Shown one piece after another: positions 759 through 16,313 of a stretch of 30,406 nucleotides of DNA (position 1 is the first letter of the stretch; the number at the start of each line of letters is the position of its first letter). Source of the DNA: a virus; the IMG/VR virus record IMGVR_UViG_3300033143_002380, positions 1-30,406 of that record. The stretch is one strand, 5' to 3'. The translations under genes and the position numbers were made by a program. The notes under the pieces are model-generated. The model had not been told where the DNA came from and did not search any database. It saw only the letters and a list, made by a program, of their open reading frames with translations.

Positions 759-1085
759 ATGGCAACTTTAAGAGAATGGTTAACAGATGAAGAATTCGAT
801 TGGGGCAATGGCCAAATTATATATAAGGCATATAGCAGAGGGAATTTAAAATCCACACAGCTATTTAAAAACCTTAAAGATAATGATAGCGAGCAACTTA
901 TTCAGTTATTGGATAAGAGATTCACCCATGGTTTTGGCTTTCCTAATTGCCCACACATTATTGCTAAAGATTTAAAAAGAATCTATTTCCCAGGCCAATA
1001 CGACGGAATGACTTGGCTAGAATCTATCGAGTTAGATTTTATGTACTATATGACGAATGACACTCCGTATGTAGGAGGAGGCTGA
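759..1085 (+). CDS. Hypothetical phage protein, 108 aa
   Basis: A 108-residue protein starting MATLREWLTDEEFDW at ATG 759, behind a weak ACGGAG site at 748-753. The C-terminus ends in a glycine run (VGGG). It resembles small uncharacterised proteins often seen in phage early regions, but I cannot name a family and see no catalytic motif. It is the last gene before the structured non-coding segment at 1090-1190. Confidence 0.7.
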   Translation: MATLREWLTDEEFDWGNGQIIYKAYSRGNLKSTQLFKNLKDNDSEQLIQLLDKRFTHGFGFPNCPHIIAKDLKRIYFPGQYDGMTWLESIELDFMYYMTNDTPYVGGG

Positions 1086-1089
1086 TTTA

Positions 1090-1190
1090 CCACAAGAGGG
1101 AAGGTTACAGGCTAATCGTGGTGGAGTCTGAAAAGGTATACGGCGACCCCTTGTGGTGTTGCATATCTCTCGCCGTATACCGACCACCAT
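1090..1190 (+). ncRNA. Candidate structured RNA with nested stems and a pseudoknot
   Basis: This gene-free stretch (1086-1211) can fold compactly. A perfect 12-bp stem pairs 1135-1146 (GGTATACGGCGA) with 1170-1181 (TCGCCGTATACC) around a 23-nt loop. An outer 7-bp stem pairs 1118-1124 (GTGGTGG) with 1184-1190 (CCACCAT, one G-U). The loop bases CTTGTGG (1150-1156) are complementary to CCACAAG upstream (1090-1096), extended by CCC (1147-1149) with GGG (1098-1100) across one bulged A. This makes a pseudoknot or an alternative pairing. The element lies in the leader of the gene at 1212 and has no U-tract, so it does not look like a simple terminator. It could be a cis-regulator, a ribozyme or a stable small RNA. 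I could not match it to a known class. Confidence 0.55.
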
Positions 1191-1211
1191 ACTTAATTTT
1201 GGAGAACGAAG

Positions 1212-1436
1212 ATGTCTATATTAAAAAGATATTATAAAGAAGGATACAGAGCTGGCTTTAAATGGAAAGAAAAATACACTCCTGGTGGGCCAACTATTTA
1301 TTTCGCCGACCCATATCTTGATGAAGATGACGATTGGAAAGAAAAATGTAAACAATCGAGGCGAAATAATGAAAACTGGCATTACGGATTTGCTGATGGG
1401 CTTAAAGACCAGAAAATTATGGGGATATTGGAATGA
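1212..1436 (+). CDS. Small phage protein with ribosome-modulation-factor-like pattern
   Basis: A 74-residue basic/acidic protein at ATG 1212 behind TTTTGGAG. The N-terminus YYKEGYRAGFKWK and C-terminus WHYGFADGLKD resemble the spacing of small RMF-like proteins, which have an N-terminal GYxAG segment and a C-terminal W..GF..G segment. The known RMF family dimerises 100S ribosomes in Gammaproteobacteria. Whether this phage protein touches ribosomes is inference from a short pattern. It sits directly downstream of the structured RNA at 1090-1190, which is therefore its 5' leader, and overlaps the next gene by an ATGA junction. Confidence 0.65.
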   Translation: MSILKRYYKEGYRAGFKWKEKYTPGGPTIYFADPYLDEDDDWKEKCKQSRRNNENWHYGFADGLKDQKIMGILE

Positions 1437-3902: not shown

Positions 3903-3949
3903 CTTAGGATTTTAAATTAGGGCTAAGTAGCTTGCCCATTGAAAGCTAC
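3903..3949 (+). promoter_or_regulatory. Structured mRNA leader of the DUF669 gene
   Basis: Just downstream of the promoter, GTAGCTT (3927-3933) pairs with AAGCTAC (3943-3949) to form a 7-bp hairpin with a 9-nt loop. The loop begins GCCC (3934-3937), which can pair back to GGGC (3920-3923), a small pseudoknot-like contact. CTTAG (3903-3907) and CTAAG (3923-3927) offer an alternative stem. The hairpin ends just before the ribosome binding site AGGAGA (3956-3961), so it could tune translation or stabilise the mRNA. The pairing is visible; the role is inference. Confidence 0.4.
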
Positions 3950-3967
3950 AAGTTAGGAGACAAGAAT

Positions 3968-4417
3968 ATGGCTCAATTGCCAGGCGTATTTAATGATACT
4001 AAAGCATCAGAAGGATTTTCAGTACTTGATGCAGGGTGGTATTTAGCGCAAATTATAAAATCGGAAATCAAACCGACGGCGGATAAACAGGGGCTTCGGC
4101 TTAATTTTCAGTTTAAAGTTGTCGAAGGTGATAGCGATGGACGAATATTTTTCCTTGGCTTAAATATCAAGAATAAGTCTGAACAGGCAATGGCTATTTC
4201 TAAGCGACAATTTGACGATATTTGCGAAGCGGTCGCAATCGACGAAGATGAACGCTCTGACCCGGGATTTGATACATCGTCTATGCACGGCATTCCGTTG
4301 AAAGTTAAGTTAAAGGTTGTTGATGCTACTTCTCAATGGCCAGCTAAAAACGAACCAATCGCATTCGCTAGTGAAGACGAAGATATAAGTGAAGATGGAG
4401 ATTCAAATCCGTTTTAA
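3968..4417 (+). CDS. DUF669-family putative ssDNA-binding protein
   Basis: A 149-residue protein matching the DUF669 phage family: ending of FSVLDAGWYLAQIIKSEIKP at the N-terminus, a beta-rich core GLRLNFQFKVVEGDSDGRIFFLGLNI, and an acidic tail ending DSNPF. A C-terminal acidic tail closing in a hydrophobic pair is typical of single-stranded DNA-binding proteins. The family is usually encoded beside Sak/RecA-like ATPases, as here. I place the start at ATG 3968 with AGGAGA seven bases upstream, not at the in-frame TTG 3932, because that segment falls in the leader hairpin. It has its own promoter (3869-3897) and is followed by a strong hairpin (4426-4473), suggesting high monocistronic expression. 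Confidence 0.78.
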   Translation: MAQLPGVFNDTKASEGFSVLDAGWYLAQIIKSEIKPTADKQGLRLNFQFKVVEGDSDGRIFFLGLNIKNKSEQAMAISKRQFDDICEAVAIDEDERSDPGFDTSSMHGIPLKVKLKVVDATSQWPAKNEPIAFASEDEDISEDGDSNPF

Positions 4418-5262: not shown

Positions 5263-5448
5263 ATGAAATTTAAAGCTGGAGACATCGTAAATTATAATCC
5301 GACAATCCTTTCCGATAAAAAGATGCATAGAGCTAGAATTGAAAGAATACTGGAAGCAGGAACACTTTTAAGGTTTGACTCGGCCATATTAGAAGGATTG
5401 GATCACTGGGTTCCTTGTCATGAATTGGAGAAAATAAATGAAATTTGA
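5263..5448 (+). CDS. Small beta-rich phage protein, 61 aa
   Basis: A 61-residue protein, MKFKAGDIVNYNPTIL at the N-terminus, then RARIERILEAGTLLRFDSA and WVPCHELEKI. The 'F..GD.V.Y' opening and alternating hydrophobic strands suggest a small SH3/KOW-like barrel, as in many phage accessory proteins. This is a fold guess only. It starts behind GAGAGAAGG (5252-5260) and overlaps the MazG-like gene by eleven bases, so the two are probably co-translated. Confidence 0.6.
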   Translation: MKFKAGDIVNYNPTILSDKKMHRARIERILEAGTLLRFDSAILEGLDHWVPCHELEKINEI

Positions 5449-5740
5449 AGAATTTGAAGATAACGTAGTAGAATGGGCTGCGGCTCACGGTATTTATAAA
5501 TATTCAGATGCTAAGGCTCAGACTTTAAAGGCTGTATCTGAAATGGGAGAGCTAGCGGATAATATTATTAAGGGAAAAGATGTCTCAGATGATATTGGTG
5601 ATATTATTGTTTGCCTTATTAATGTTGCATATCTTAAAAATGCCCTTATGGGAGATTGCTTTGACACGGCCTGGAATGACATCAAGGACAGAAAAGGATG
5701 TATGACGGAAAGTGGTGCATTCGTTAAGGACAGGGACTGA
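5438..5740 (+). CDS. MazG-like nucleotide pyrophosphohydrolase
   Basis: A 100-residue all-alpha protein with the MazG-type metal-binding signature. SEMGELADNIIKG carries E35 and E38, and SDDIGDIIVCLINVA carries D52 and D55, i.e. ExxE followed by DxxD. MazG-fold enzymes hydrolyse (d)NTPs to (d)NMP and pyrophosphate. Phage versions have been linked to lowering ppGpp, cleaning the pool or removing dGTP. The substrate cannot be read from the sequence. It starts at ATG 5438 inside the end of the previous gene, with GGAG at 5428-5431. With the HD, ThyX-like and NDT-like genes at 14.1-16.3 kb it points to nucleotide-pool remodelling. Confidence 0.78.
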   Translation: MKFEEFEDNVVEWAAAHGIYKYSDAKAQTLKAVSEMGELADNIIKGKDVSDDIGDIIVCLINVAYLKNALMGDCFDTAWNDIKDRKGCMTESGAFVKDRD

Positions 5741-6048
5741 TGAGTAAAATTAAAAATTGTCCGTTCTGTAATTCTAAAGCTAAATTAAATCGTTTATTAA
5801 GCAAAGTAGGTCATGGCGAGTACGAAAGAATGGTTGCTAGCGTTATAGTTGAATGTGAAAAGTGTCATTCTAAATCAGCGGAGGTAATGATAATGCCGCT
5901 TTGCGATTTCACCGAGCGTACAGTTTCTGATTTCAGGAATAACCCAATTCTTCAAGCTAAAGTGGAAGATGAATACGAAAAATATAAAGACGTTAGAAAG
6001 GAAGAGGCATTGAGGTTGTGGAATAACAGAGCAAATCAAAACGATTAA
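5740..6048 (+). CDS. Lar-like zinc-ribbon protein (restriction alleviation type)
   Basis: A 102-residue protein with CPFC at residues 7-10 and a second pair CEKC at about 39-42, making a zinc ribbon. It ends with EEALRLWNNRAN, the 'EAi.lWN.R' signature of the Lar_restr_allev family. The namesake Lar of the Rac prophage alleviates type I restriction by acting on the host enzyme. Most phage homologues are untested, so the anti-restriction role here is inference. The start at ATG 5740 shares a base with the upstream TGA. The domain looks complete, though the middle insert is longer than in the smallest family members. Confidence 0.72.
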   Translation: MSKIKNCPFCNSKAKLNRLLSKVGHGEYERMVASVIVECEKCHSKSAEVMIMPLCDFTERTVSDFRNNPILQAKVEDEYEKYKDVRKEEALRLWNNRANQND

Positions 6049-9589: not shown

Positions 9590-9619
9590 GTCTAAATGGG
9601 AAATTCATCGGTGACTAAA

Positions 9620-10378
9620 ATGAACTTTATATTTTTAGCCGGAGCACCAAAGGGTGGAACGACTACGATACATCGACTGCTAGGGCGTCATAACGATATA
9701 CATGCGAATGCAAAAAAGGAGAACGGATTCTTCGGATATGAATATAGCCTAGGTATGTATCATTATTTGAATACTTACGCCACGGGATACAAAAACCAGA
9801 AATTTATATTAGACTCGTCGACCAATAATATGATTGCGACGTTTATTCCAGAGCGAATCAAAATTCTCCTTCCTAATTCCAAAATTATTCTTAGCATACG
9901 CGAGCCAGCGGAAAGATTTATAAGTGATTTTTATTATTGGAAAAATATGAAACCTGGCAGATTATCGGGCAGCTTGTTAGAAAATATAATATCAGGAATG
10001 TATAAGTTTGACGTCAATTGCTTTAGTAACGAAGAAAAGTTTTGCTCGAATATGGATAGATGGGGGTACTCGTACGATTTAAGATTAATTGAGCGAGGCT
10101 ATTACCCCGATTACTATCGAATATGGAAGTCGGAATTCGATACGAAAGTTGTTCTATTCGACGATATAAAGTCAGATCAAAAATCAGTGTACGAATCCAT
10201 TTGCGATTTTTTATTAATAGACCATGACGGTTTTTCGGAAACTTTGCAAAATAAAGGGAAGCCTAAAAGTTTAAATCACGATACTGAAATCGAAATGTTA
10301 CGTGCATTCTATAGAGATAGTGTCTCGATGATGTCAGAATTGATCGACATAGATTTAATAGCGAAGTGGGGATATTAA
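9620..10378 (+). CDS. PAPS-dependent sulfotransferase (heparan/NodH-like Sulfotransfer family)
   Basis: A 252-residue enzyme. The 5'-phosphosulfate loop is GAPKGGTTT (P10-K11-G12-G13-T14-T15). The 3'-phosphate site is LSIREPAERFISDFYY, with R94 and S102. KENGFF (from about residue 33) and LDSST (from 64) match the substrate/catalytic strands of the family, and ERGYYPDYYRIW with FLLID near the end complete the fold. The family moves sulfate from PAPS to a hydroxyl or amine of glycans, lipids or proteins. I prefer ATG 9620 (GGTGA upstream); ATG 9596 would put the ribosome site inside the terminator. A sulfotransferase between a terminator and DNA-polymerase genes is unexpected. The acceptor could be host surface glycan or a virion component. 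Confidence 0.85.
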   Translation: MNFIFLAGAPKGGTTTIHRLLGRHNDIHANAKKENGFFGYEYSLGMYHYLNTYATGYKNQKFILDSSTNNMIATFIPERIKILLPNSKIILSIREPAERFISDFYYWKNMKPGRLSGSLLENIISGMYKFDVNCFSNEEKFCSNMDRWGYSYDLRLIERGYYPDYYRIWKSEFDTKVVLFDDIKSDQKSVYESICDFLLIDHDGFSETLQNKGKPKSLNHDTEIEMLRAFYRDSVSMMSELIDIDLIAKWGY

Positions 10379-11264: not shown

Positions 11265-14117
11265 ATGATCCATATAGCATTACAAAGTGAGTATAGTTTT
11301 CAACAATCTTATTATCACCTTGAACAATTAGTGTTGGATGCCGTCGAGCGTGGAGATTCCGCTGTCGGTATAGCAGATACTAATAATACGTTTGCCCATA
11401 TTAAATTTCAAAGATTTTGCGAAAAACATAAAATTAAGCCTATTTTCGGCGTTAGGCTAATTGCAACGAAGGAAATAGAAAAGGCTCGATCATTTAGAAA
11501 AAGTTGCGATCAGCAAATATCCGTCATCCTTTTAGCTATAAATGCAAGAGGGCTAGAGCGCATATATGAAACGGTAAAAATTGCATTCGATAGATTTTAT
11601 TATGCACCGAGGCTATTATATCGCGACGTATTAGAAATATCCGATGACGTAATCGTCATAGGAAGCCATCAACCTAGCGACTCTAAGCTAGTAGCGCATC
11701 GGTTTGATTACCTAGAATCTAACGGGGCGAGGGAATACCCGGTAATATCGCCCGAAAATCGCGTAGAAAAGCCGAAAGTCCTCATTCCGTACGTTAAATA
11801 TTCAAAGCCGAGCGACGTTGACGTATTCGAGCTATTTACGCACAGAAAGGGCACCGATACTAGAACTTATGGTGGGCCGGTAAAATCAGACGGCCTTCTG
11901 CTGATGGATGGGGCGAATATAGGTGAAATCAATGAAGCTAAGAAGATAGCAGACTCTATAGACAACATATCTATCGCCAAATCGGATATGATAAAATTCA
12001 AAGAAAAGGTCGATTTCGATAGAACTTGTTTAAAAGGTGCTATTCGTAGGGAAGTAGACCTAGATGACCCGATATACAAGGAAAGGTACGATTTAGAGTT
12101 AAAATTGATAAAAGAGAAAAGCTACGTCGATTATTTTCTTATGGTGTCTGATATAATAAACTTCGCAAAATCGAAAATGCTAGTCGGCCCGGCAAGGGGA
12201 AGCTCCGCTGGGAGTTTGATATGCTATTGCTTAGGGATAACCGAAATCGATCCAATTCCATACGGGCTTTTGTTCAATCGCTTTATCGATATAAATAGAT
12301 TCGACTTACCGGACATAGATACGGACTTCGCGGATAATAAGCGCCAGCTTGTAATAAAATATATAGAGAAGAAATACGGTTCCGATAGAGTCGCATCGAT
12401 AGGAATTGTATCGACTATGAAGCCAAAATCGGCGATTGGCGAATTTGCATCTGCTCTCGATATTCCGGCATACGAGGTCGACGATGTAAAGAATTCTATT
12501 ATCGAGCGTCAAGGTGGAGATGCCAGATCGAAAATGTGCGTAGAGGATACACTCAGCGGAACGGATGCCGGATTAAAGCTGATTGAAGATCATCCGAATA
12601 TGTTATTGACTACGAAAATAGAAGGTCACGCTAGGCATTACGGAAAGCATGCCGCAGGTGTAATTGTGTCGAATGACCCTTTAACTAAATATTGCGGAGT
12701 TGATAGCAGAAGTGGTGTCATCATGATGAATAAATATGACGTTGATTATTCAAACATATTAAAAATAGATATTCTTGGACTAAGAACTTTATCAATATTG
12801 GAGGATACGGCAAATTTCGCAGGATTTGACAAAAACGAATTTTATAATCTTCCGCTGGACGATAGTGGTGCGATAGAGGTTTTGAATGAAGGACGTTTTT
12901 CCGGAATATTTCAATTTGAAGGGCAAGCTCTTCAAATCGTATCGAAAAGTATGGGGATAAAAGAATTTAGCGACATAGTTGCGATCACCGCGCTTGCTAG
13001 ACCTGGAGCACTGAACTCAGGTGGAACAGCGAAATATATAAAGCGCCACACAGGAGAGGAATTGCCAGTATATTACGGTGCTATACATAAAGAAGTGACG
13101 GAGGAAACGCACGGTACGGTAGTATATCAAGAACAGATGATGATGATAGCCAGAAGAATAGGGAACATGACTTGGGCACAAGTCGCGGAATTAAGACGTG
13201 CCACGTCAAAATCGCTCGGAGACGAATTCTTCGGAAAATACAAAAGGATATTCATAGAAGGAGCTGCAGAAAACGGAATCGACGAAAAAACTGCAGATGA
13301 AATTTGGAGAGCAATCTCTAGTTCTGGATCCTGGATGTTCAATAAATCGCACGCAGTAAGCTATGCGTTGATAAGCTATTTTACGGCCTGGTGTAAAGCT
13401 CACTATCCTTTAGAATTTGCAGCGGCTAATTTAAACCATGCGAAAGACGACGAGTCAGCTTTAAGGATTTTAAGGGACTTCGTGGTCAACGACGGAATTG
13501 AATATTCAACTATCAACCCCGACGAGTCTGGTATAAATTGGAGCATAGTGAACGGAAAATTATTGGGAGGGCTTACTCTTATCCACGGGATAGGAGTGAA
13601 GAAAGCCCAAAAAATAATAAAGACTAGAAACGAAGGCGGGGCGTATACGCCAGCTATCGCCAAATCGCTTCTTAGCTGCGAAACGCCGTTTGATATTCTA
13701 TTCCCTGCAGAGCACTATTTCGGTGGAATATATAAAAATCCGTCATCGATAGGAGTATTTGGAGAAATATCGAAGCTAGAAGATTGCTACGATCCCGGAG
13801 AATATATAATTATAGGGAAAGTGGCGAAAAGAGATTTAAGAGACAGAAACGATTATCAATCGGTAGTGAAAAGGGGGCATAAGGTCGATACGGATCAATT
13901 TTACTTGAACTTATTTATCGACGATGATACTGATTCGATAAAATGTACGATACCTCCGTTTAAATTTGAAGAGTTGAACGGAAAATATTGGTCTGAAAAT
14001 GCAATTCCAGGGAAAACGTGGCTAATTATTAAAGGCGAGATACGGGATAATTGGAGAAGCATATCAGTAAGTGGAATAAACGAATTGGACGAAAAAACCG
14101 GAGTTGTAAAATGTTAA
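11265..14117 (+). CDS. dnaE: DNA polymerase III alpha subunit (DnaE-like), phage replicative polymerase
   Basis: A 950-residue C-family polymerase, shorter than E. coli DnaE (about 1160). Domains in order: N-terminal PHP-like region (1-240); palm with VGPARGSSAGS (307-317) and PDIDTDF (349-355), the catalytic D352 and D354; third aspartate D502 in KIDILGLRTL; fingers with FQFEGQAL, LARPGALNSGG, VVYQEQMM and FNKSHAVSYA; helix-hairpin-helix GIGVKKAQKI; C-terminal OB-like domain from about 840. The PHP metal residues are degraded: HSEYS is QSEYS (residues 7-11) and TDHG is replaced by ADTN (37-40), so PHP activity is probably lost. It acts with the DnaQ-like protein just upstream. A clamp-binding motif is not evident. 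Confidence 0.92.
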   Translation: MIHIALQSEYSFQQSYYHLEQLVLDAVERGDSAVGIADTNNTFAHIKFQRFCEKHKIKPIFGVRLIATKEIEKARSFRKSCDQQISVILLAINARGLERIYETVKIAFDRFYYAPRLLYRDVLEISDDVIVIGSHQPSDSKLVAHRFDYLESNGAREYPVISPENRVEKPKVLIPYVKYSKPSDVDVFELFTHRKGTDTRTYGGPVKSDGLLLMDGANIGEINEAKKIADSIDNISIAKSDMIKFKEKVDFDRTCLKGAIRREVDLDDPIYKERYDLELKLIKEKSYVDYFLMVSDIINFAKSKMLVGPARGSSAGSLICYCLGITEIDPIPYGLLFNRFIDINRFDLPDIDTDFADNKRQLVIKYIEKKYGSDRVASIGIVSTMKPKSAIGEFASALDIPAYEVDDVKNSIIERQGGDARSKMCVEDTLSGTDAGLKLIEDHPNMLLTTKIEGHARHYGKHAAGVIVSNDPLTKYCGVDSRSGVIMMNKYDVDYSNILKIDILGLRTLSILEDTANFAGFDKNEFYNLPLDDSGAIEVLNEGRFSGIFQFEGQALQIVSKSMGIKEFSDIVAITALARPGALNSGGTAKYIKRHTGEELPVYYGAIHKEVTEETHGTVVYQEQMMMIARRIGNMTWAQVAELRRATSKSLGDEFFGKYKRIFIEGAAENGIDEKTADEIWRAISSSGSWMFNKSHAVSYALISYFTAWCKAHYPLEFAAANLNHAKDDESALRILRDFVVNDGIEYSTINPDESGINWSIVNGKLLGGLTLIHGIGVKKAQKIIKTRNEGGAYTPAIAKSLLSCETPFDILFPAEHYFGGIYKNPSSIGVFGEISKLEDCYDPGEYIIIGKVAKRDLRDRNDYQSVVKRGHKVDTDQFYLNLFIDDDTDSIKCTIPPFKFEELNGKYWSENAIPGKTWLIIKGEIRDNWRSISVSGINELDEKTGVVKC

Positions 14118-14680
14118 GAGATATAATATCGATAGGTATTGATACGGCGACTATAACGAGATATAGCCAATCGCATCTAATAAGAAACGAATCGGTGCTT
14201 GAGCACACAGGATTCGTGTCTATGTTCTGCCTTATTTTGTCTGATCGAATACCTGACGTAGATAAAACCGAATTGCTATCTAGGGCTATAGTTCATGATA
14301 TGGAAGAATCAATAGTCGGAGATATATCGAGGACTACAAAGTATTTCGATGCGGACGTTAGAAGTTCTATATTGAGAGTCGAAAAATATGCAATGAGAAC
14401 GATATCTTCTGAATTAGGAGGATCGAATTTCATGTACGATTTATGGGCTAGGTCAAAAGACGATTCCATAGAAGGAAGAATAGTGCAATTAGCCGACGCG
14501 ATATCAGTTTTACTAAAAGTGTACGAGGAAACGATAATCCTCAATAACAGATCGATTAAGACGCACGTCGAAAATCTTATTCAAACATTCGTCTCGATGA
14601 TAGATGACGATAATGAAGTAATATGTTCGATTGTAGCCGAAGCGCTCGAAATTTGTGAAGAAATAAAGGAGGCCGTATGA
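14111..14680 (+). CDS. YfbR-like HD-domain 5'-nucleotidase
   Basis: A 189-residue HD phosphohydrolase. The metal ligands are H32 (ESVLEHTG), H62-D63 (AIVHDMEE) and D129 (QLADAIS), in YfbR/OxsA/DatZ-type spacing. R17 and the N-terminal TRYSQS match the deoxynucleotide-binding start of YfbR, and IVGDISRTTKYF matches its 'tGD.ptp.Ky' segment. The family dephosphorylates deoxynucleotides; DatZ members of some phages remove dATP. Substrate here is unknown. The start is ATG 14111, overlapping the polymerase stop; an upstream in-frame ATG at 14051 would lie inside dnaE. It is coupled to the next gene by an ATGA overlap. Confidence 0.8.
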   Translation: MLRDIISIGIDTATITRYSQSHLIRNESVLEHTGFVSMFCLILSDRIPDVDKTELLSRAIVHDMEESIVGDISRTTKYFDADVRSSILRVEKYAMRTISSELGGSNFMYDLWARSKDDSIEGRIVQLADAISVLLKVYEETIILNNRSIKTHVENLIQTFVSMIDDDNEVICSIVAEALEICEEIKEAV

Positions 14681-15879
14681 ACAGAGTTAAATACAAATCA
14701 CCTTCGATAGTAGTCATGGACTCGTATGATGAAAAAATGAGCGCTTGGAAAATATCGAAGCCCCAATTGCTACACGATGATGAAAAAATAAAGGAAAAAG
14801 TGGAATCGATGGATTTGCCTCTTAACGGATTAGCATCGTATGTATTTCACATAAACTCTAGTATTATGTTCCGCGACCTTATATTCACTTTGCGACCGGC
14901 TGCTATGTGGGCAAAAAGTAATCGAATATCGAATATCGATTATGATAACATGTTTATATCGGGCGAATATGATATTGACGTACGAGATAGAAATATAGAT
15001 ATTGAACAATTATCGGAAGTGATTGATTCAATAGCAAACGGAGAAGAGCAGGAATTGGCAAAAAAGATGTTGCCGATGTCTTGTAATACCGAGTTCGTGA
15101 TATCCATAGATGATAGGACATTAGTGGCATTTTTGAAGACGCTGATGACTCACTCTATTGATGTATATAATATATATGGAAAATTATTTCTATCGGCTCT
15201 CGGCGTAGATAGTTCATATATCAAAAATAGGCATTGCGGGGATATATTTGATAAGCTAAGTATATCAAAATTGGAATTCGATAGCGTAAACAAAGTGGAA
15301 TTTGCACTAGATTCGATAGCTAGCGTCCATAAAGTATCGTCGAATCTTATGGCTCAATTTATAAGGCAGCACTATTCGACCGTAAAGAATCAACTATTCA
15401 ATATCGTAAAGGATACTAGCATATATGATTTATATTCAACTTGCAACGAGGATATTATAGTTGCAATGTACGCTAATCGAAAATCGTTCGATAGGACTAT
15501 AAGTGTAAGAACTTGTTGGTTCGCTCAATTCGACGACGACGATAATTCTAGCTGGTCTTATATTTTATCACCGTTTATAATAGACAAAACTCCTAGCGAA
15601 TTTGCGAGTATTTTACCTTGCAGAGGCGACGGTAAGAATTGCAAAATAAGGGAAGACATGATGGCGAAAATAGAATTAAGAGACAATCTGTATCCTTGCC
15701 CAATTTTAATCGAAGACCCAGCACTAGTGAAAAAGAGAAAACTGAGATATAGCTCGAATTCAATCGTCTCGAAGAAATGGGCCGATATGGTAATATCGGG
15801 AGAAATATCAAATAATGTAAACAATGATCTTCGCGTCGAATATGAATCAAACCTATTAAAGATAAGAGGTGACGAATGA
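14677..15879 (+). CDS. ThyX-like protein, possibly tandem (flavin-dependent thymidylate synthase related)
   Basis: A 400-residue protein in two parts that echo each other. Part 1 has SSIMFRDLIFTLRPAAMWAKSNR (about 61-83) then CNTEFVISIDDRTLVAFLK. Part 2 has SSNLMAQFIRQHYS (about 221-234) then CNEDIIVAMYANR and SVRTCWFAQ (276-284). ThyX has an equivalent order: 'SR...Q.vRHR..S...S.R', then 'NaRsl..fl.lR.c..AQwEI'. The canonical RHRxxS motif is degenerate (RPAAMWAKSNR), so substrate or activity may have changed. Its place between HD nucleotidase and deoxyribosyltransferase genes supports a dUMP/dTMP-type role. The call rests on distant pattern resemblance, not a clear match. An ATGA overlap precedes and follows it. 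Confidence 0.45.
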   Translation: MNRVKYKSPSIVVMDSYDEKMSAWKISKPQLLHDDEKIKEKVESMDLPLNGLASYVFHINSSIMFRDLIFTLRPAAMWAKSNRISNIDYDNMFISGEYDIDVRDRNIDIEQLSEVIDSIANGEEQELAKKMLPMSCNTEFVISIDDRTLVAFLKTLMTHSIDVYNIYGKLFLSALGVDSSYIKNRHCGDIFDKLSISKLEFDSVNKVEFALDSIASVHKVSSNLMAQFIRQHYSTVKNQLFNIVKDTSIYDLYSTCNEDIIVAMYANRKSFDRTISVRTCWFAQFDDDDNSSWSYILSPFIIDKTPSEFASILPCRGDGKNCKIREDMMAKIELRDNLYPCPILIEDPALVKKRKLRYSSNSIVSKKWADMVISGEISNNVNNDLRVEYESNLLKIRGDE

Positions 15880-16313
15880 GAAAAACATATATAGCGAGTC
15901 CATTCTTTAACGAGACAGAATTAGCGTTTGTAAAAATAATAGAAAATGCACTCGAATCGGTAGGGCAAAAGTTTTATAGTCCTAGACTTGACGGTGTTCT
16001 TATGGACATGACTCAAGAGGAAAGATCGAAATCAAAAAGGCTAATTTATGACACTAACGTAAATAATATAATTGAATGTGATTGTATGATTGCGGTTATT
16101 GATGGTCGCGATCAGGGAACTATTTTTGAAATTGGATACGCCGCAGCGTTAAATAAGCCTATTATTACAATAACTAATCAAAATTTCGGAGTCAATGTAA
16201 TGTTAGCGGAAGCTACATATTCGCATCTAACCTCCGTTCATGAAATCGTAAATGCGATAGAATCATCTAGGTTAGGAATTCCTTGGGCTATAGATAATAG
16301 GGATGTATATTGA
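15876..16313 (+). CDS. Nucleoside 2-deoxyribosyltransferase-family protein (NDT/DNPH1-like)
   Basis: A 145-residue protein with the NDT fold pattern: TYIASPFF at the N-terminus, CDCMIAVIDGRDQGTIFEIGYA (68-89) containing the likely nucleophile E85, then KPIITIT. The family either transfers deoxyribose between bases or cleaves the N-glycosidic bond of (hydroxymethyl) nucleotides, as DNPH1 and MilB do. Which one applies cannot be read from sequence. It overlaps the ThyX-like gene by ATGA and lies just before the ligase, so it belongs to the nucleotide-metabolism part of the replication block. Full-length by comparison with typical 140-160 residue members. Confidence 0.8.
   Translation: MRKTYIASPFFNETELAFVKIIENALESVGQKFYSPRLDGVLMDMTQEERSKSKRLIYDTNVNNIIECDCMIAVIDGRDQGTIFEIGYAAALNKPIITITNQNFGVNVMLAEATYSHLTSVHEIVNAIESSRLGIPWAIDNRDVY

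Follow-up and report, generated by a model that had tools for sequence, protein, structure and literature searches.

The closest described working principle for the RNA element reported here is the operator of gene 32 in phages T4 and RB69. In this operator a 5' pseudoknot borders on a less structured segment that contains UUAAA/UAAA repeats and the ribosome-binding site, and the structure is kept while the sequence diverges (PMC535899). The element in the window (the whole stretch of DNA that was analysed, a virus record of 30,406 bases) is alike in several respects: it belongs to a phage, a 5' pseudoknot is followed by an unstructured leader of the UUAA type with a ribosome-binding site, the sequence diverges under a kept structure, and an SSB gene lies in the same operon. 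However, the helices of the window element are much longer and include an additional enclosing stem (B), and the element does not stand ahead of the SSB gene and shows no sequence similarity to the operator. The ToxI-type antitoxin RNAs of type III toxin-antitoxin systems also resemble it, as pseudoknot RNAs beside small genes. They are tandem repeats of about 36 nt ahead of a toxN gene, whereas the window element is a single unit of about 100 nt with no toxN-like gene.

Like the element, the put RNA of phage HK022 is a structured cis RNA of an early phage operon that is indifferent to the gene behind it; it comprises two stem-loops of about 70 nt in all (PMC9378689). In contrast to put, the window element has no promoter close to it. 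The Pistol self-cleaving ribozyme is, in outline, a small RNA of three stems plus a pseudoknot (PMC4604425). Pistol and similar small pseudoknotted ribozymes share this three-stem format with the element, but Pistol has a highly conserved set of nucleotides and its Rfam model fails to match the window element. The loop of Pistol pairs downstream, whereas that of the window element pairs upstream. As what seems to be the same fold recurs, in almost entirely different letters, in two distantly related phages, the evidence points to a new, unnamed regulatory RNA, whose role is a guess.

A predicted pseudoknot between two small genes

The densely packed genes of the window are interrupted by a 126-base intergenic gap (1086-1211) between two small genes. 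This gap is occupied by a structured RNA element of about 100 bases (1088-1190, + strand; Table 1), which can form a three-helix pseudoknot. The helices of the original prediction were found at their given coordinates by direct reading of the sequence, helix A being even longer than proposed. Its core joins CCACAAG (1090-1096) and GGG (1098-1100), with the bulged A1097 between them, to the bases 1147-1156 (CCCCUUGUGG) of the 23-nt loop (1147-1169) that stem C encloses, and the pairs A1089-U1157 and U1088-G1158 extend it to 12 pairs plus the bulge. Stem B has 7 pairs, one G-U among them. Hairpin D (5 bp, 1103-1107/1113-1117) is a variable insert, a counterpart of which can form in one of the two further copies described below (L074) and is absent in the other (L053).

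Table 1. Coordinates of the element, its parts, neighbouring genes and further copies
Feature	Position	Strand	Sequence and remarks
Upstream gene	759..1085	+	108 aa; weak phrog_21631 match, E 0.004
Helix A, 5' strand	1088..1100	+	UACCACAAGaGGG; A1097 bulged; starts 2 nt past the stop codon of the upstream gene; pairs with 1147-1158
Small hairpin D	1103..1117	+	GGUUA/UAAUC; between A and B; from sequence and fold
Helix B, 5' strand	1118..1124	+	GUGGUGG; from sequence and fold
B-to-C linker	1125..1134	+	AGUCUGAAAA; 10 nt (9 nt in L074, 4 nt in L053)
Helix C, 5' strand	1135..1146	+	GGUAUACGGCGA; 12 perfect pairs
Helix A, 3' strand	1147..1158	+	CCCCUUGUGGUG; directly 3' of C; pseudoknot partner of 1088-1100
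A'-to-C' joining strand	1159..1169	+	11 nt (10 nt in L053 and L074)
Helix C, 3' strand	1170..1181	+	UCGCCGUAUACC; from sequence and fold
Helix B, 3' strand	1184..1190	+	CCACCAU; 2 nt (GA) after helix C
3' tail motif	1191..1198	+	ACUUAAUU; ACCUAAUU in L053, ACUAAUU in L074
Shine-Dalgarno	1201..1204	+	GGAG; 7 nt ahead of AUG 1212; in the unstructured leader 3' of the pseudoknot
Downstream gene	1212..1436	+	74 aa; without family match
Candidate SSB gene, DUF669-type	3932-4417		Window; same operon as the element
L053 element	9155-9237	gene direction	Intergenic; IMG/VR contig of ~32 kb
L074 element	9895-9986	gene direction	Intergenic

That such a set of helices is improbable by chance, as originally claimed, was borne out: a stem C of at least 12 perfect pairs together with a helix A of at least 8 pairs occurred in none of 641 shuffled windows (one strand each). 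Against the loop, just 4 of 5000 stretches drawn at random from the same phage paired as well as the true upstream sequence. Nested folding alone, which yields stems B and C, is only mildly unusual (z -2.25). For the window the pseudoknot is favoured over the nested MFE (-40.0 versus -35.2 kcal/mol), the former being a rough estimate in which helix A was added with a pseudoknot penalty of 9.6 kcal/mol and loop geometry was ignored.

None of the Rfam 15 covariance models matched at the gathering score and none was credible even at E<=10, the best sub-threshold matches being short and implausible. Membership in a known class of small ribozyme is unlikely: the Rfam models fail to match and the three copies show no conserved core nucleotides. 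With blastn and nhmmer no DNA-level relative of the element was found in the searched collections (phages and relatives), and the neighbour proteins used as bait retrieved no close relatives.

The original prediction had noted the lack of a U-tract and had named a terminator or an unannotated gene as grounds against it; neither was found. An intrinsic terminator was rejected, since the hairpin is followed by CCAUACUUAAUUUUGG with no U-tract, and no promoter or terminator pattern was found at the element, where GC skew shows no switch either. As for a protein gene, a 58-codon open frame (1061-1237, +) spans the element in frame -1 relative to the upstream gene, without ATG and preceded by a strong Shine-Dalgarno-like AGGAGGAGG (1073-1081). 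It has neither a family match nor a significant tblastn match (best E 0.3) and was rejected. The L053 and L074 elements contain one open frame each, and coding through all three copies has no protein support. Stop-codon read-through or frameshift was rejected as well, with the window read-through stopping after 9 codons and the frames differing among the copies. The gene behind the element had been called RMF-like, a name that could not be confirmed: its product lacks a Pfam match, and the single PHROG match is weak (E 0.059) and of unknown function.

Elements of the same architecture in other phages

The gene order of the window (Sak4, DUF669, Cas4-type exonuclease, helicase, PolIII alpha, ligase) is that of Cronobacter phage Ss1 and Vibrio phage VA-RY-3. 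The window phage is distantly related to these two, with a protein identity of about 43-50% for Sak4, PolIII alpha and helicase and 32-35% for the exonuclease. The element sits in a long co-directional operon. Other genes observed in the window include a sulfotransferase-domain gene amid the replication operon (9596-10378, +; PF00685, E 2.5e-13), a MazG-like pyrophosphatase and, behind it, a protein that has a Lar-like restriction-alleviation match (5438-6048, +; phrog_599), and a nucleotide-metabolism cluster (14096-16313, +) of a YfbR-like HD 5'-deoxynucleotidase, a Thy1-match protein and a nucleoside 2-deoxyribosyltransferase.

Relatives were collected via Sak4, helicase and exonuclease, and both strands of 292 loci (3.18 Mb, 7.4% intergenic) were scanned with a home-made structure descriptor. 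In the first scan the window and L053 were nearly equal (71.5 and 71.4), and L074 surfaced as the next member once the helicase search was added. With tight descriptor limits, which were chosen after the first members had been seen, the window (75.0), L053 (72.8) and L074 (70.1) came out on top of the 292 loci, followed by 63.0. The top three loci are intergenic and in gene direction, and the lower matches are nearly all coding. The tight descriptor reached at most 65.9 in 25.4 Mb of shuffled control (none reached 66), and its best match in an independent set of 80 bacterial loci (1.18 Mb) scored 66.9 in a coding region, with none clearly intergenic.

The comparison set consists of only three independent copies on fragmentary contigs, one copy per phage sequence; L055 bears a copy identical to that of L053. 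Neither close relatives of any of the three elements nor one of intermediate similarity were found. Matches at L195, L265, L154, L174, L249, L104, L327 and L369:2639-2739 were rejected, as they had the wrong spacing, lay in repetitive or coding DNA, or were expected by chance. No member was found in the examined stretches of Ss1, VA-RY-3, PVA7, Langgrundblatt1, BL5, JG054 and RHph_Y55, nor in those of AP22, IME284, Smarc2, Kp4864-1, Lumi, Itty13 and Vibrio 1.278.O. The occurrence is sporadic, and most relatives having the same genes are without the element. No accessory partner gene is common to the three phages beyond the replication genes, which are also present in element-free relatives.

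In all three copies the parts follow the order A-(D)-B-C-A'-C'-B'. In the window, L053 and L074 respectively, helix C has 12, 13 and 10-12 pairs, helix B 7, 7 and 6, and helix A 12, 11 and 13, with one purine bulged at the same position, two or three pairs off the C junction. The spacings are also close, with 0-3 nt from C to A', 10-11 nt from A' to C' and 1-2 purines from C' to B'. It turned out that 26 of 29 aligned pairs were changed on both sides and that 90 of 90 cells held standard pairs, a count that is partly circular because the members had been found by pairing. The same limit applies to the compensatory changes by which the original prediction would be supported, which are seen across the three copies. 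Its reading as a structured pseudoknot RNA without a family is supported by the lack of a credible Rfam match and by the recurrence of the architecture in two elements of related phages; the cis-regulator, ribozyme and small RNA that it offered are each only a candidate role.

Immediately 3' of the structure stands a motif AC(Y)UAAUU (at 1191 in the window, at 9230 in L053 and at 9987 in L074), of which L053 and L074 contain a single occurrence each. Among 454 motif occurrences the best upstream structures are those of the three copies (60.5, 59.0 and 52.5; next 41.0), although this test is not independent, as the motif was derived from these copies. In a fairer test with the window flank only, L053 ranked 44 and L074 217 of 9762 matches. 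We regard it as unlikely that the window RNA is real but alone, with L053 and L074 being look-alikes from a large scan. These ranks, the shortness of the motif and the missing intermediate relative would fit such partial chance, as would the looser descriptor, which by chance scored at or above 70 in shuffles and in coding or repetitive DNA. Because of these chance scores and the post-hoc tight limits, location and detail outweigh the score, and they argue against chance: all three copies are intergenic, in gene direction, within the Sak4-DUF669-Cas4 exonuclease-helicase module and followed by the tail motif, with tight spacing in common and with the shuffled and independent controls remaining below them.

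The copies differ in how readily the fold forms. For L074 a nested fold competes with the pseudoknot, whose estimated stability it roughly equals. In L053 helices A and B are linked by only 2 nt and B' shares bases with the tail motif, so the steric fit is doubtful and helices A, B and C may not all form together.

Possible roles of the element

Each copy ends shortly ahead of the next start codon, with an A/U-rich unstructured leader between. The gene that follows encodes the 74-aa protein in the window, a phrog_26384 protein in L053 and the helicase in L074. The tentative reading that we prefer is that the element may control translation in cis as an operator of the T4 gene 32 kind, to which the DUF669-type SSB of the phage perhaps binds. 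It was proposed from the T4 principle together with the finding that the DUF669 protein of the sak4 phage HK620 is an SSB (PMC5928155). The element would act in cis within the early/replication transcript, where the folded RNA may be a landing site for a phage nucleic-acid-binding protein. The bound protein would then spread over or block the A/U-rich leader and the ribosome site, and translation of the next gene would be lowered at a late stage of infection, in the way that T4 gp32 represses its own mRNA. By analogy, the DUF669-type SSB from the same operon is a candidate binder.

Several observations argue for this operator: in all three copies a pseudoknot is followed by a UUAAUU/UAAUU leader into the start codon, all lie in the module that encodes the DUF669 protein, and the best three of 292 loci under the tight descriptor are these intergenic ones. 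The architecture fits the T4 type, with a well-placed Shine-Dalgarno in the window copy only. In L053 and L074 the next gene has none, though most genes there do, which suggests that the element occupies the initiation region. The main arguments against the operator are that the next genes differ and in none of the three copies is it the SSB gene, and that the element is missing from most relatives with the same genes. Besides, it is far larger than the T4 pseudoknot (12 + 12 pairs versus about 28 nt in total), and the doubts about simultaneous helices in L053 and the equally stable nested fold of L074 also weigh against it.

In the two copies that lack a well-placed Shine-Dalgarno, the next start codon follows the structure at a distance of 3-14 nt, so ribosomes might be recruited or gated by the RNA itself. 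A new family of large pseudoknot RNAs, with almost no sequence conservation, that would stand in for the Shine-Dalgarno step of the following gene or control it is, however, quite improbable.

The variable downstream genes, against a constant operon and direction, also suit a transcript-level cis element, such as a processive antiterminator or an RNase-processing or stabilising structure that would separate or protect segments of the long early message whatever gene follows. We consider this less probable than the operator but plausible, and the long co-directional operon and the lack of a promoter or terminator pattern at the element are consistent with it. The comparison with put speaks against it: HK022 put has two stem-loops near early promoters and its structure paper mentions no pseudoknot (PMC9378689), while the window element is not a pair of stem-loops near an early promoter, none being found close upstream.

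In L074 two genes that overlap one another in the window, L053, L002 and L003 are set 103 nt apart, and the element takes up this gap almost exactly. Together with the sporadic occurrence at different gene junctions, this would fit a separate phage small RNA or an accessory, possibly mobile, cassette that acts in trans, a decoy or anti-defence RNA for instance. We think it rather unlikely, since the window copy has no promoter or terminator of its own, no flanking repeats or mobile genes were identified, and each phage sequence has a single copy. The two genes are those of exonuclease and helicase, and in L074 the helicase start at 10001 is without Shine-Dalgarno. A long imperfect hairpin was also observed at L074 7107-7197 (minus strand) between divergent gene blocks, likely a terminator or operator region.

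A new class of self-cleaving ribozyme or riboswitch is highly improbable. The compact pseudoknotted fold with long helices and its absence from Rfam would be compatible with one, but the three copies show no conserved core nucleotides beyond the helices, the bulged purine and the tail motif, and the following genes share no pathway.

If the element is real, it would represent an RNA family in which nothing but the lengths and spacings of the helices is kept and which routine sequence and covariance searches therefore miss, and pseudoknot control elements in phage replication operons would extend beyond T4. A concrete descriptor is now at hand for finding further such RNAs.
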